DNA of 64,000 bases. Source: Siphonodentalium dalli. Lineage: Eukaryota > Mollusca > Scaphopoda > Gadilida > Siphonodentaliidae. Shown in pieces: positions 11,510 through 27,721 of this stretch. The notes beneath the pieces were generated by a model, which had not been told where the DNA came from, did no database searches, and saw nothing but the letters and a program-made list of their open reading frames with translations. Both the position numbers and the translations under genes were made by a program. Where the stretch lies: the NCBI GenBank assembly GCA_032622095.1, contig CP136063.1, forward strand, positions 280,109,426 through 280,173,425. Direction: 5' to 3'. Position 1 is the stretch's first letter, and every line of letters begins with the position of its first letter.

Positions 11510-11918
11510 GTGTCTGGCATTTGCAGAATGAGGTTCCCAGAGGGTGAATTTAGTTATGCTACCCTGCACAGCAGTCTAGCATCACCAAATACACTAGCCA
11601 GGGTCCTCATTCTGCTTAAGCCTCATCCTCTGGGAAGTATATAGGCACTTAAATTGACATTTTTACTTACTTTTTCCCTTCTATTTAGTTTCTATATCCC
11701 CTAATTTGTGAATATAAAATGCATAATTGAGGTGCCCAGTGGGTGCACATCACCAACTTTAACTGGAGAACTTCAATCTAATGCTATGTCTCCCATAGCA
11801 GTTGAGGCCTACACAGAATGAGGTCCTCAGAGGGTGAATTTGGTGATGATAGCCCGCATTGCAGGATTGTGTCATTAAATTCACCCTTATGGGACCTCAT
11901 TGTGCAAATGTCAGACAC
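11510..11918. mobile_element. hairpin-ended MITE F3, copy 1
   Basis: Each end is a hairpin of about 120 bp: GCAGAATGAGG..CC, GGGTGAATTTAG, a GC-rich loop and the complement. The middle is about 170 bp. Outer ends match as GTGTCTG.CATTTGCAG / CAAATGTCAGACAC. Other copies: 52763-53170, 53272-53494, 54143-54553. Confidence 0.85.
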
Positions 11919-23329: not shown

Positions 23330-23344
23330 TATGGTATCTAAGCA
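23330..23344. repeat. LINE target-site duplication, 3' side
   Basis: TATGGTATCTAAGCA, identical to 27668-27682. It fixes both ends of the LINE. Confidence 0.9.
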
Positions 23345-23364
23345 GCAGCAGGAACAGGATTTGC

Positions 23365-23386
23365 GTGCCCGCCCGAAGGGCGGCAC
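23365..23386 (-). promoter_or_regulatory. LINE terminal hairpin with UUCG loop
   Basis: On the LINE strand GTGCC, GCCC, TTCG, GGGC, a bulged G and GGCAC form a hairpin about 20 bases before the 3' end. C(UUCG)G is an exceptionally stable tetraloop. Position fits the 3' structure that some LINE reverse transcriptases recognise (inference). Confidence 0.6.
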
Positions 23387-23621
23387 GAGGACGGTGTGGG
23401 CTCACCCGGAGGTCGCCCTTACGCCCTGTCTTGGATCTTCTTGGTATTTTCTCTTAACAGTCAGGCCGCGGATCGGGTGGAGAAGTCTCGAGGTCGGGAT
23501 CGTTCAGCGTCGCAGGTGTCTTGAATCTTGTCTTGTCTTGAATCTTCCATCTTTTCTTGGGCTTTGCCTTGTACTTTGCCTTGATCTTTTTCTTTTTCTT
23601 TGCCTTGTCTCGGCATCTTGC

Positions 23622-23914
23622 AAAATGCGGGACGATCCAGTGATGATGCTGGATTGCGCATTTTCAGTTGGTTGTCCAGGCCCGGGACCTTCCAATGGAG
23701 GCATTGGATTGCGGGCTGCAAAGAGAGTACGGGACGGTCCAGTGATTCCACTGGACTGCGTGCTCTCTTCTGTTACCGCCCGGGACGGTCCAATACACTG
23801 TATTGGACTGCGGGTCTTTTCTGAAGTGGGATACGGGACGGTCAAGCATGGCCTGCTTGACTGCGTATCCTAAAACCCGGGACGGTCCAATAAGCCTATT
23901 GAACTGCGGGTCTT
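23622..23914 (-). repeat. six tandem two-stem hairpins in the LINE 3' UTR
   Basis: Hairpins at 23622-23664, 23678-23718, 23722-23768, 23779-23815, 23829-23870 and 23872-23914. Each has an outer stem (4-10 bp), an internal loop that is GGACG (GGACC in one) on one side and TG on the other as read on the + strand, and an inner stem of 6-9 bp with a 3-8 base loop. Stem sequences differ between units but stay complementary. Confidence 0.9.
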
Positions 23915-23915
23915 T

Positions 23916-26633
23916 TCAGCCACAGAGAAGATGTTTGCGTTGTAAACACTCCCTCATGATGTCACTGCCGTCCATTCTCGCCAGTGTACTTTCCGCCAGA
24001 TCGCGCAGGCGCTCTCTGATGGGTTCCACGTCAGCGATGGTATGCAGATCTACAATACGGGTGTGATACGGTGCTTGCAGTGCCATTCTCAGGGCTTTGT
24101 TTTGGACCACCTGGAGCATTTGGATCGCGCGATATGATGCCAGGTTGGTGACCACCGATGCGTATTCCATGATAGGTCTTACAAACGTTTTGAAGACTCT
24201 AAGCAGAGTGGCCATGCTAGCTCCCCAGGAAGTTCCCCTCAGCCGTCTGAGAAGATTAACTCGTTGCATGGTCCTCGTGGCTGTCTGCTTAACATGGGTT
24301 AGCATGGTGAGTCTGGAGTCCAAGGTGACGCCTAGGAAGGTCACCTCTTTTGCGGCAACTAAGTCAATGCCACTGACATTCAGTTTGACCACCGAATTGC
24401 GTTTTCGTTTCGTGAATATGGCGAATTGTGTTTTGTTTGCATTGAGCTTAATGCGCCATTTCGAGCACCACCTTTCCAGGTCACCGAGGGCCCGCCTCAG
24501 TCTGAGCTCCACATACTTTGTACTGCCATTGGTGATCCACAGACCCAAGTCATCAGCGAACTGCGACAGTTGCACTTGGTGCCTCGGGTCTATTTCAATG
24601 TCATTGACGTAGAAAATATAGAGCAATGGGCTTAAGACCGACCCCTGTGGTGTACCAGCGTTCAGTGGAACAGAGTCCGACGATTCTCTGTCCACCCTCA
24701 CCTTTATTGAGCGGTTGGTGAGGAAGGCGGAGAGAAGCCTTACAAGTTTGACCGGGAGGCCATACTTGTGTAACTTGTACCGGAGGCCGTTGTGCCAGAC
24801 GCTGTCGAACGCCTTTTCAACGTCAAGTAGCACTGTACCAGTTACCCAGTTTTTATGGAAGCCACTGCGTATGTCCTCCACAAGGCGGTAGATGTGTTCT
24901 ACTCCTTCGCATCCGTTTCGGTATGCCCTCTGCCATTTGTTGAAGAATAAATTCTTCTCCAGATGGTTTCGGAATCGTGATGCAATGATTGCTTCGAATA
25001 GCTTGCCGATGCAGCTAAGAAGACTGATTGGTCTAAAGTTGCCAGGGTATTTCAGATCTTTGCCATTTTTTGGTATCATGATGCCGATTGCCTCTTTCCA
25101 TGCAACTGGAAAGTAACCAATCATCAGGCAGGTGTTGTACAGCTTGGTAATGTAAGAGAAGAGTTCAGCTGGAGCTTCTTTGAGTACCCTGTATGGAATT
25201 CCATCGTGGCCAGCGGCCGATCTAGACTTGCACTTGGAGAGAATCCCGATGGTTTCTTCCGAAGTGATCTCTCTAGTGAGATCGTGGTCGTCTCCCACCT
25301 CATCACTCACGTTTTCCTGAGGTTTGAATAAGTCCTCATTCAGGCTGACTAGGTTGTCAACTTCCAGTTTCCAGTCGTCGTCAAATTGAGGGCCAATTTG
25401 AACTTGGTGGGCTCGACTGAGTGCGTCTGAAAAAGCGTCCGCTTTTTCCTTTGTGGAGGAAGTTAACGTACCGTCAATACGATACACCGGATTCTCAACG
25501 TTCCCATTGCTGTGATTTTTTGAGGTGCCAGTCAGGGTTTTGAGCTTTGACCAGAACTCGCGTCCGTTGTTCCGATCGTGTGTGTTGAGTTCAGAGGTGA
25601 CATTTTCCCACGCTTGTTTGCGGTCCGACTTGACCCGTTCCTTCACCTTTCGGTTTAGGGTGTTGTACCACGTCAACAGGGCCGGTGTTCTGTGCTTTTG
25701 CCACATCCGAAACACATGGCGCTTCTGCTTGATGAGGTCAAGCGTTTCCTTAGTCACCCTCGGTGCTCCACATTTAGTCAGTTTTTTTGGGCATGCCCTA
25801 TCCAGGGCCGACTGGATAGACTGCATCAGATGTTCACAAGCAACATCGATTTCTGATATGCAAGAGAGTGAAAGTTCAGTGTTCAGATGGATACGGATAT
25901 CTTCCCTGAACGCTGACCAGTCAGCTTTCTCCAAGTTGCGAGTAAGTTTTCTTGGATATTTGTCAATGTGGCTAAGTCTTTGATCAAATATTGCATGTAC
26001 CGGTAGGTGGTCGCTACCAACTGTTTCTCCAACGAAGGTGCTAACCGCCTTTCGTATGAGAGATTCACTGGCTATAATATAGTCAATAACTGACCCACGT
26101 CCGTTTTGAAAGTGAGTTTCCTCCCCTTCATCATTCAAGACGTGAGCTTCCGCCTTCTCAACTACATCAAACAGATGGTCGCCATGAGCGTCGGATTCCT
26201 TGCTTCCGTAGAACATATGCTTGGCATTAAGGTCGCCTCCGATGAGGCATTGGTCGTGGTTGTTCATCATATAGACAATGAGGTCACGGTTGACAAGGAG
26301 CTGTGGCGGGCAATAGTATGCCACCACCGCCAAATCCCTGCCCCCGAAGCTGGTTTTTAACGCCACAACTTCAGCCCCTGTCGAGATATTTTGAGGAATA
26401 TCTATCACAGAGTGCTTGACGTCGTTTCGTACGAGAATCGCGACGCCTCCCCCTCGATTGGTACGATCGAGTCGGTGCATTTTGTACTTGGGAATTCGAA
26501 GTTTTTGGCCATCAAGCTTGGTTTCGTTCAGGAGAACGAACTCCGGGTTGTGCTCATATAGGTAATGCTGTAGAAGCGCACGATGACCCCGCAGGCCATT
26601 GATGTTAATGTGTATAACATGCAGACCAGCCAT
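23916..26633 (-). CDS. LINE ORF2: endonuclease and reverse transcriptase
   Basis: 905 codons. Endonuclease in the first 215 residues: HININGLRG, NETKL, RGGGVAILVR, GGDLNAKH, DYIIASE and GSDHLPV carry the usual N, E, D, N, D and H positions of APE-type enzymes. Reverse transcriptase in about 450-760: SAAGHDGIPYRVLKEAP, FRPISLLSCIGKLFE, LLDVEKAFDSVWH, AGTPQGSVLSPLLY and the catalytic QFADDLGLW, then FLGVTLDSRL. A C-terminal 140 residues follow with no RNase H and no CCHC. The protein nicks target DNA and primes cDNA from the cut. The start is 2 bases after the ORF1 stop, so re-initiation or a stop-start mechanism is likely. All motifs are intact. Confidence 0.95.
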   Translation of the reverse strand: MAGLHVIHININGLRGHRALLQHYLYEHNPEFVLLNETKLDGQKLRIPKYKMHRLDRTNRGGGVAILVRNDVKHSVIDIPQNISTGAEVVALKTSFGGRDLAVVAYYCPPQLLVNRDLIVYMMNNHDQCLIGGDLNAKHMFYGSKESDAHGDHLFDVVEKAEAHVLNDEGEETHFQNGRGSVIDYIIASESLIRKAVSTFVGETVGSDHLPVHAIFDQRLSHIDKYPRKLTRNLEKADWSAFREDIRIHLNTELSLSCISEIDVACEHLMQSIQSALDRACPKKLTKCGAPRVTKETLDLIKQKRHVFRMWQKHRTPALLTWYNTLNRKVKERVKSDRKQAWENVTSELNTHDRNNGREFWSKLKTLTGTSKNHSNGNVENPVYRIDGTLTSSTKEKADAFSDALSRAHQVQIGPQFDDDWKLEVDNLVSLNEDLFKPQENVSDEVGDDHDLTREITSEETIGILSKCKSRSAAGHDGIPYRVLKEAPAELFSYITKLYNTCLMIGYFPVAWKEAIGIMIPKNGKDLKYPGNFRPISLLSCIGKLFEAIIASRFRNHLEKNLFFNKWQRAYRNGCEGVEHIYRLVEDIRSGFHKNWVTGTVLLDVEKAFDSVWHNGLRYKLHKYGLPVKLVRLLSAFLTNRSIKVRVDRESSDSVPLNAGTPQGSVLSPLLYIFYVNDIEIDPRHQVQLSQFADDLGLWITNGSTKYVELRLRRALGDLERWCSKWRIKLNANKTQFAIFTKRKRNSVVKLNVSGIDLVAAKEVTFLGVTLDSRLTMLTHVKQTATRTMQRVNLLRRLRGTSWGASMATLLRVFKTFVRPIMEYASVVTNLASYRAIQMLQVVQNKALRMALQAPYHTRIVDLHTIADVEPIRERLRDLAESTLARMDGSDIMRECLQRKHLLCG

Positions 26634-26635
26634 GA

Positions 26636-27721
26636 TTAAGCTGTCAGTTGCCTACAATACTCTGTAAGGTGTTCACTTGAAACACTAGTTTTATAGACTT
26701 TGCTCACTATAGACGCCACGCGAGCAGATATTCCCGATTTATTGATGAGAGAATCGGATGCGACAAGTGTAGCTGTGAGGCTGGCACAGAGTACGCAAGC
26801 AAGGTTGAGGGCTTCCCGGCCTGATGGGGACGAGCAAGAGGACTGAGCTAAGCTTAGTGATCTTGCCTCCTTCTTTGTTACCTCAGTTTTGTAACGAGGG
26901 CACACTTTGTCCGAGCTTTTGTGCCCTCCTCCGCAGTTTGCACATTTGACAGCGTCATTTGTACATTTTTGATGAGTGTGTTCACCACCACACTTCCGGC
27001 ACTTGGTTTTTGATTGGCAACTATAGCTAGCATGGCCATATGGTTGACAGTTGTAGCACTGTGTGGGTGTTGGTTTGGCTACGTAATCACTTGTTTTGTA
27101 TTTAGCAAAGTCAAGTACTAAGCCTTCTTTTAGGAGTCTCTGCTTGACTTCCTTGTTTGGACAGGTTATCTTCACTTTCCAGGTTGAAGATCCTGTCGCG
27201 GATGCAACCAAGCGCTTGGCTGTACATCCTGCCCCTGCGCTTGTAGCACAGTATGCGTCGTCGATGCTTGGATGGATCTTGAGCGCGACGACGCATAGGT
27301 TTTCCTTTACCCCTTTCTTGCCCAAGCCTGTGGGTTTGAAGGTGGTGTCACCAAGGTCTTTGGCTTGCAACAATTTTTGCCTTGAAGCTTCATCCCTCAC
27401 AAAGATCAGGATTTCAGCTTTGTTCCGTTGGCTAGGACGCGTCTTCATCACGTCCGTAACGCTGCACTTTTCACGCAGAACAGTTGCTAGTCTCCCGGGA
27501 TGGTTGCTAATCCCAGCCGGGAGGTTGACACCCAAGACAGGTGGTGTGCGTTTTTTTGCGTCATTTTTGGGTTTATCATCAATCTTTTCCTTTGTAGGAG
27601 GAGTCGATTGATCGCCTTGTGTTTTCTTGCCTTGTGTTTTGTTCTTGGGTACCACTGTAACCCATTTTATGGTATCTAAGCATCGGCTTGTGATGCGATT
27701 TATATCACTAGGCAGGCGCAA
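26636..27721 (-). CDS. LINE ORF1 gag-like protein, in frame with host ATG
   Basis: Lys-rich N-terminus, then a central part that may be an RNA-binding fold (AEILIFVRDEASRQKLLQAK; WKVKITCPNKEVKQRLL), then three zinc knuckles: CYNCQPYGHASYSC, CRKCGGEHTHQKC and CANCGGGHKSSDKVC. Such proteins coat LINE RNA and chaperone cDNA priming. The ORF is open to an ATG at 27721, but the LINE's 5' end is at 27667, so the first 18 codons (MRLPSDINRITSRCLDTI) are host sequence including the target duplication. The element's own start would be elsewhere: the next Met is MKTRPSQRN about 90 codons in. Either ORF1 is 5'-truncated or it now uses the host start. Confidence 0.9.
   Translation of the reverse strand: MRLPSDINRITSRCLDTIKWVTVVPKNKTQGKKTQGDQSTPPTKEKIDDKPKNDAKKRTPPVLGVNLPAGISNHPGRLATVLREKCSVTDVMKTRPSQRNKAEILIFVRDEASRQKLLQAKDLGDTTFKPTGLGKKGVKENLCVVALKIHPSIDDAYCATSAGAGCTAKRLVASATGSSTWKVKITCPNKEVKQRLLKEGLVLDFAKYKTSDYVAKPTPTQCYNCQPYGHASYSCQSKTKCRKCGGEHTHQKCTNDAVKCANCGGGHKSSDKVCPRYKTEVTKKEARSLSLAQSSCSSPSGREALNLACVLCASLTATLVASDSLINKSGISARVASIVSKVYKTSVSSEHLTEYCRQLTA
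27668..27682. repeat. LINE target-site duplication, 5' side
   Basis: Second copy of TATGGTATCTAAGCA; see 23330-23344. Confidence 0.9.

Follow-up and report, generated by a model that had tools for sequence, protein, structure and literature searches.

The window, a 64,000-nt stretch of the Siphonodentalium dalli genome, carries a 5′-truncated LINE on its minus strand (Table 1), and relatives of this element were sought across 2.2 Gb of the genome in nine contigs. Its ORF2 matched the Pfam families RVT_1 (E = 7e-37) and Exo_endo_phos_2 (E = 7e-20) and gave no RNase H match in the same Pfam domain search; the nearest solved structures are LINE-1 ORF2 proteins, followed by R2 proteins. The combination of an APE endonuclease and a reverse transcriptase in ORF2 with a target-site duplication and a 5′ truncation that cuts ORF1 is that of an APE-type LINE, and because the same 14 bases stand at both flanks, we regard it as a normal LINE insertion. 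The CCHC zinc knuckles of ORF1 were recognized by eye, with only a weak Pfam match to zf-CCHC_6 (E = 0.005, below the Pfam cut-off) and nothing at an E-value of 0.001; an RRM, checked as a feature of Jockey superfamily type I ORF1, was not found in ORF1 with Pfam. Adjoining the ORF2 stop codon, in the 3′ UTR, lies an array of six hairpins, followed by the 3′ tail of the element. By eye, old relatives have a motif similar to the hairpin that this tail carries close to its 3′ end.

Table 1. The LINE of the window, its target-site duplication, and its hairpin array. Arms are given as left/right, and units are written on the plus strand, i.e., antisense to the LINE.
Feature	Position	Strand	Details
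Target-site duplication, 5′ copy	27668-27681	minus	GCTTAGATACCATA at both ends
LINE	23344-27667	minus	5′-truncated
ORF1	26636-27667	minus	5′-truncated; CCHC zinc knuckles (motifs by eye)
ORF2	23916-26633	minus	905 aa; APE endonuclease and reverse transcriptase
Whole array	23622-23914		3′ UTR of the LINE; six hairpins with GGACG/TG internal loop
Unit 1, type A	23622-23664		outer AAAATGCG/CGCATTTT, loop GGACG/TG, inner ATCCAGTG/TGCTGGAT; two tip wobbles
Unit 2, type B	23680-23716		outer GCCCG/CGGGC, loop GGACC/TG, inner TCCAATG/CATTGGA; T.T at inner base
Unit 3, type A	23721-23769		outer AAGAGAGTACG/CGTGCTCTCTT, loop GGACG/TG, inner GTCCAGTG/CACTGGAC
Unit 4, type B	23778-23815		outer GCCCG/CGGGT, loop GGACG/TG, inner GTCCAATAC/GTATTGGAC
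Unit 5, type A	23829-23870		outer GGATACG/CGTATCC, loop GGACG/TG, inner GTCAAGCA/TGCTTGAC
Unit 6, type B	23873-23913		outer CCCG/CGGG, loop GGACG/TG, inner GTCCAATA/TATTGAAC; C.A (G.U on sense strand)
LINE 3′ tail	23344-23621	minus	about 280 nt, downstream of array
Hairpin near LINE 3′ end	23364-23387	minus	CGTGCCGCCCTTCGGGCGGGCACG, one bulged base (by eye)
Target-site duplication, 3′ copy	23330-23343	minus	GCTTAGATACCATA on minus strand

From the outside inward, each unit consists of an outer stem, an internal loop (GGACG in the left arm, TG in the right), an inner stem about 8 bp long, and a short terminal loop, and the six can be aligned with a single gap position. The first-pass annotation had described six such units in this interval, with a loop that was invariant save for one base in one unit; we found all six with their stems in the sequence, the exception being the GGACC of unit 2. 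An antisense open reading frame that crosses the array (23331-23873) was rejected: it starts outside the element, at a codon within the target-site duplication, and it is not open in any of 49 other copies, a set that includes partial ones. The unit spacings (55, 47, 51, 53, and 44 nt) are not uniformly divisible by three, and a peptide repeat would therefore not stay in frame. Two other repeats were observed in the window. Tandem 30-nt units with the palindrome TTGCGCTTAAGCGCAA form a hairpin-forming array at 2324-2504 whose sequence is unrelated to that of the LINE array, and a GGGACCTCATTCTGCAAATGACAGAC-like motif recurs at 11891, 53143, 53363, 53467, and 54527 as a separate dispersed repeat, which by eye also flanks the old LINE copies L062, L078, and L079.

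A genome search with a 501-nt query gave 203 candidates, 40 of which were scored, with array identities of 93 to 100%. The divergence within this young family alone is too small for informative covariation. Older relatives were reached with a degenerate pattern of the unit, which matched 422 genomic sites, while the same pattern reversed matched none. Some of the sites listed were divergent arrays, and one of these (L070) gave access, through DNA similarity, to old, decayed relatives, three of which led in the same way to further ones. A structure model detected units in 11 of 13 sources (L062, L070, L075, L077-L083, and L085) and none in L076 and L084, both of which are flank pieces; the old, decayed loci have 2 to 10 detected units each. 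The reverse transcriptase (RT) region beside the array showed identities of 55 to 73% in L085, 60% in L087, 66% in L080 and L100, and 57% in L101, but these loci are decayed copies and the divergence between families is therefore smaller. L089, first taken for a deep family because of its 47% ORF2 identity, was dropped as such, since its DNA over the RT region is 77% identical to the window copy (74 to 79% in the best rows), making it an old decayed copy. A homologous LINE tail was found in 24 of 45 loci (L061-L105), and several old relatives share the tail of the window copy by eye; the remaining loci (21) may be decayed or truncated, or may end short of the tail. Only two or three units were detected in the old copies L062, L078, L079, L081, L098, and L105, as though 5′ truncation often fell within the array, perhaps from stalling of the reverse transcriptase on the hairpins. 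The first-pass annotation had reasoned that the units would be chance inverted duplications if other copies of the LINE lacked them, but young copies and much older relatives alike carry the array, which is thus conserved across an old LINE lineage.

Outside this lineage the array was missing from the LINEs examined. It was matched in 50 of 60 loci compared, and the 10 without a match (L041-L050) are flanks of LINEs with 49 to 52% RT identity. In all 10, the covariance model found no array unit at E-values up to 1. They are a sample of the 42 LINEs listed at about 50% RT identity, for which 97 of 35,191 candidates were scored, and they indicate that the array is not generally needed for LINE mobility. 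Other features were observed in these flanks. One of the families, with 52% RT identity, has in its 3′ UTR two copies of a different module of about 110 nt that folds (L041:917-1230, L042:268-550, and L049:279-612); the module gave no Rfam match, and between its copies two positions change in a matched fashion by eye (C-G to T-A and G-C to C-G), and tandem structured modules may therefore be a wider habit of these LINEs. L050 contains a LINE copy of another family immediately upstream of an apparent histone H2A gene (by eye).

Within the window array, 84 of the 90 stem cells are paired, compared with 26 to 47% of cells when the partners are slid by one to three columns. The covariation score of the six units was 0.609, against 0.312 ± 0.056 after shuffling, and none of 500 shuffles reached it. 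Ten of 15 pairs have changed on both sides, a number matched by 2 of 500 shuffles; the count of further pair types is unremarkable (102 of 500 shuffles). Each strand has a lower folding energy than all of 100 dinucleotide shuffles, with -118.3 kcal/mol (z = -7.55) for the sense strand and -144.7 kcal/mol (z = -8.36) for the antisense strand. Together with the reversed-pattern control, the covariation and the shuffled folds led us to reject chance palindromes. The best fold of the whole sense array does not contain all six hairpins; units 4 and 6 pair with one another through their nearly identical arms. One inner pair of unit 5 (23844/23858) is A-T in the window copy only, being T.T in 44 and T.G in 3 of 48 copies; it has drifted without compensation in a recently active family, which counts against selected structure. 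Compensation therefore does not extend to every stem change.

A larger set of units was collected with a sequence-only model that assumes no structure, applied to 11 loci and afterwards to 28 more (39 of 105). Of its 216 matches, we removed 6 that lay on the opposite strand and 11 whose length was unfit; adding the six window units gave 205 units from 40 sources, 112 of them nonredundant. Watson-Crick pairs filled 1,102 of 1,680 cells in these 112 units, against 947 ± 17 (maximum, 985) in 300 shuffles in which right arms were dealt among units, a control that leaves the relatedness of the units in. Covariation was likewise higher than in the shuffles (0.189 against 0.087 ± 0.009; maximum, 0.110), and slid partners paired in 18 to 27% of cells. 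That pairing is not higher is probably explained by the decay of old copies; in two inner C-G pairs, changes to T.G and to C.A are about equally frequent (9 and 9 in one, 9 and 10 in the other).

The same 112 units delimit a conserved core. The letters of the internal loop are 79 to 93% constant, its two closing pairs 77 to 84%, and the TCCA/TGGA of the lower inner stem 83 to 96%. Beyond the CG/CG, the commonest letter of the outer stem reaches 33 to 67% on the left arm and 43 to 49% on the right, save for two T's at 79 to 80%. The first inner pair has its left base at 54% and its right base at 82%, and the top three inner pairs are at 55 to 58% on the left arm and 49 to 74% on the right. The core is thus wider than the internal loop and takes in TCCA/TGGA. 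The stem sequence, which had been described as free, is so in the outer stem beyond CG/CG, at the left base of the first inner pair, and in the top three inner pairs, but TCCA/TGGA is conserved like the loop. Apart from the uncompensated pair in unit 5, the covariation and the presence of the array in old relatives agree with the earlier proposal of a selected structure in the LINE 3′ UTR, which we consider well supported.

The units fall into two types, A with an ATACG-like outer stem and an inner CAG, and B with an outer CCCG and an inner CAA. With class references drawn from the units themselves, neighbors less than 75 nt apart alternated in type in 138 cases and were of the same type in 7, whereas permutation within loci gave a mean of 87 alternating neighbors and a maximum of 104 in 2,000. 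Old loci alone, by our own labeling of loci as old or young, gave 65 against 7 (permuted mean, 43; maximum, 55). The window array reads ABABAB, i.e., (A-B)x3, and that of the old copy L077 reads ABABABAB. The repeat unit is therefore a dimer of two alternating hairpin types, which the earlier description of six units had not brought out. A functional dimer, e.g., with one protein dimer per hairpin pair, would be a guess. The clearest exception to the A-B order is L080:1987-2587, a run of A-type hairpins at a 57-nt period that is probably a secondary tandem amplification.

Considering all these patterns, our favored reading, held tentatively and at somewhat less than even confidence, is that the six hairpins form a selected, multivalent docking array on the sense LINE RNA and that its partner is most likely a protein of the element's own RNP, above all ORF1p. 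We infer that the acting form is RNA, that the sense strand carries it, that it binds protein, and which protein this is. Each hairpin would offer one fixed recognition surface, composed of the asymmetric internal loop, its two closing pairs, and the TCCA/TGGA helix above, while the outer and apical stem pairs would mainly be required to pair. The hairpins would work as A-B pairs whose number can vary (three in the window and four in L077), as expected if avidity outweighs exact geometry. ORF1p would bind through its zinc knuckles and so mark the element's own RNA for assembly; in PMC4120745, the zinc knuckles of such ORF1s are described as participating in transcript binding. This docking reading is favored by the position of the array right after the ORF2 stop, the covariation, the 138:7 alternation, the fixed core beside more variable pairs, the retention in old relatives, several of which share the tail, and the CCHC knuckles of ORF1 (by eye; Pfam below cut-off). 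Against it stand wobbles that do not favor the sense strand, the more stable antisense fold, the pairing of units 4 and 6 in the best sense fold, the T.T at 23844/23858 in 44 of 48 copies, and the LINEs at about 50% RT identity without the array (10 of 10 examined).

The partner could instead be a host protein that exports, stabilizes, or translates the intronless LINE RNA, by analogy with retroviral RNA export elements, where export factors are recruited to structured sites with bulges or internal loops; we consider this rather unlikely. The repeated internal-loop sites are similar in logic to the Rev response element (PMC4488727), and the array does sit in an untranslated region. Nevertheless, it has no Rfam match: Rfam 15 at the gathering threshold gave none in the window or in L041, L042, L049, L083, and L089, nor did 23345-23960 give any at E-values up to 5, so that a known RNA family was rejected as its identity at these thresholds. 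The examined LINEs at about 50% RT identity also do without the array. The likeness to the Rev response element and the constitutive transport element would be one of working principle only, with several bulged or internal-loop protein sites per RNA, as sequence and layout differ. Retroviral RNA export elements are not known to consist of long rows of nearly equal hairpins.

The first-pass annotation had called the acting strand unclear from the wobbles, and these indeed do not decide between the strands: the class consensus has 104 Watson-Crick pairs of 120, 5 G.T (antisense-type) against 4 A.C (sense-type) wobbles, and 7 other mismatches. The acting form might be the antisense strand or DNA: the hairpins might work in an antisense transcript or in first-strand cDNA, or form cruciforms to which chromatin or recombination factors are drawn. 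The balance of the two wobble kinds at the class level would suit this, as would the greater stability of the antisense RNA, with similar z-scores though, and the excess of antisense-type wobbles in the outer stems of the 112 units (91 G.T and 63 A.C). We nonetheless hold it improbable, as the inner stem is richer in sense-type wobbles (116 A.C against 52 G.T) and the antisense coding frame is open in none of the 49 other copies. Either RNA could also narrow the internal loop, the antisense by closing C-G and G.U within it, leaving a GGA bulge, and the sense by closing C-G next to A.C, leaving a UCC bulge.

Quite improbable, in our judgment, is that the array takes part in 3′-end recognition by the LINE reverse transcriptase, as an enlarged version of the terminal stem-loop of stringent-type LINEs. 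PMC4176376 reports that the ORF2 of such LINEs binds a stem-loop in the 3′ tail, and the array shares the 3′ UTR with the tail and often accompanies it (24 of 45 loci). Stringent-type LINEs such as UnaL2, ZfL2-1, and ZfL2-2 likewise have structured RNA in the 3′ UTR, but theirs is a single short stem-loop of the 3′ tail that ORF2 reads, whereas the window has internal-loop hairpins in A-B pairs. These lie not at the very 3′ end but about 280 nt upstream of it, and any counterpart of the stringent-type stem-loop would be the separate hairpin at 23364-23387; some related families have a comparable 3′-end hairpin without the array (by eye). For the same two reasons, the distance and the separate hairpin, a role as a cDNA priming signal, which the first-pass annotation had named as a candidate beside a protein-binding array and a packaging signal, is unlikely. 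Finally, we consider it very unlikely that palindromes merely spread by tandem duplication and that template switching (quasi-palindrome correction), whether in reverse transcription or in replication, kept their arms alike without selection. Although the units are tandem duplicates and L080 has its 57-nt A-unit run, such correction should erase the asymmetric 5/2 internal loop, yet the loop is among the most conserved positions, and the A-B order and core conservation in old relatives are left unexplained.

Rows of the short coat-protein hairpins of phages MS2 and PP7 present many copies of one protein site and, as tandem tags, are man-made. The window array differs from them in that the row is natural, the conserved site is an internal loop, and the hairpins alternate between A and B. 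No description of such an array appeared among the open-access papers listed for LINE or retrotransposon hairpins in tandem or repeated form, nor among those listed on neighboring topics. As a more speculative and doubtful extension of the docking reading, the A-B array may be a natural multivalent RNA tag, evolved by LINEs of this lineage, that nucleates the element's RNP on its own RNA, i.e., an array of packaging signals that would create cis-preference. With a host protein as partner, the array would instead represent a new element of RNA export or stability. By what means a LINE protein picks out its own RNA from all others in the cell, known as cis-preference, is a long-standing question, and an array whose core is fixed, whose stem pairs are exchangeable, and whose copy number varies naturally would offer ready variants for testing it.
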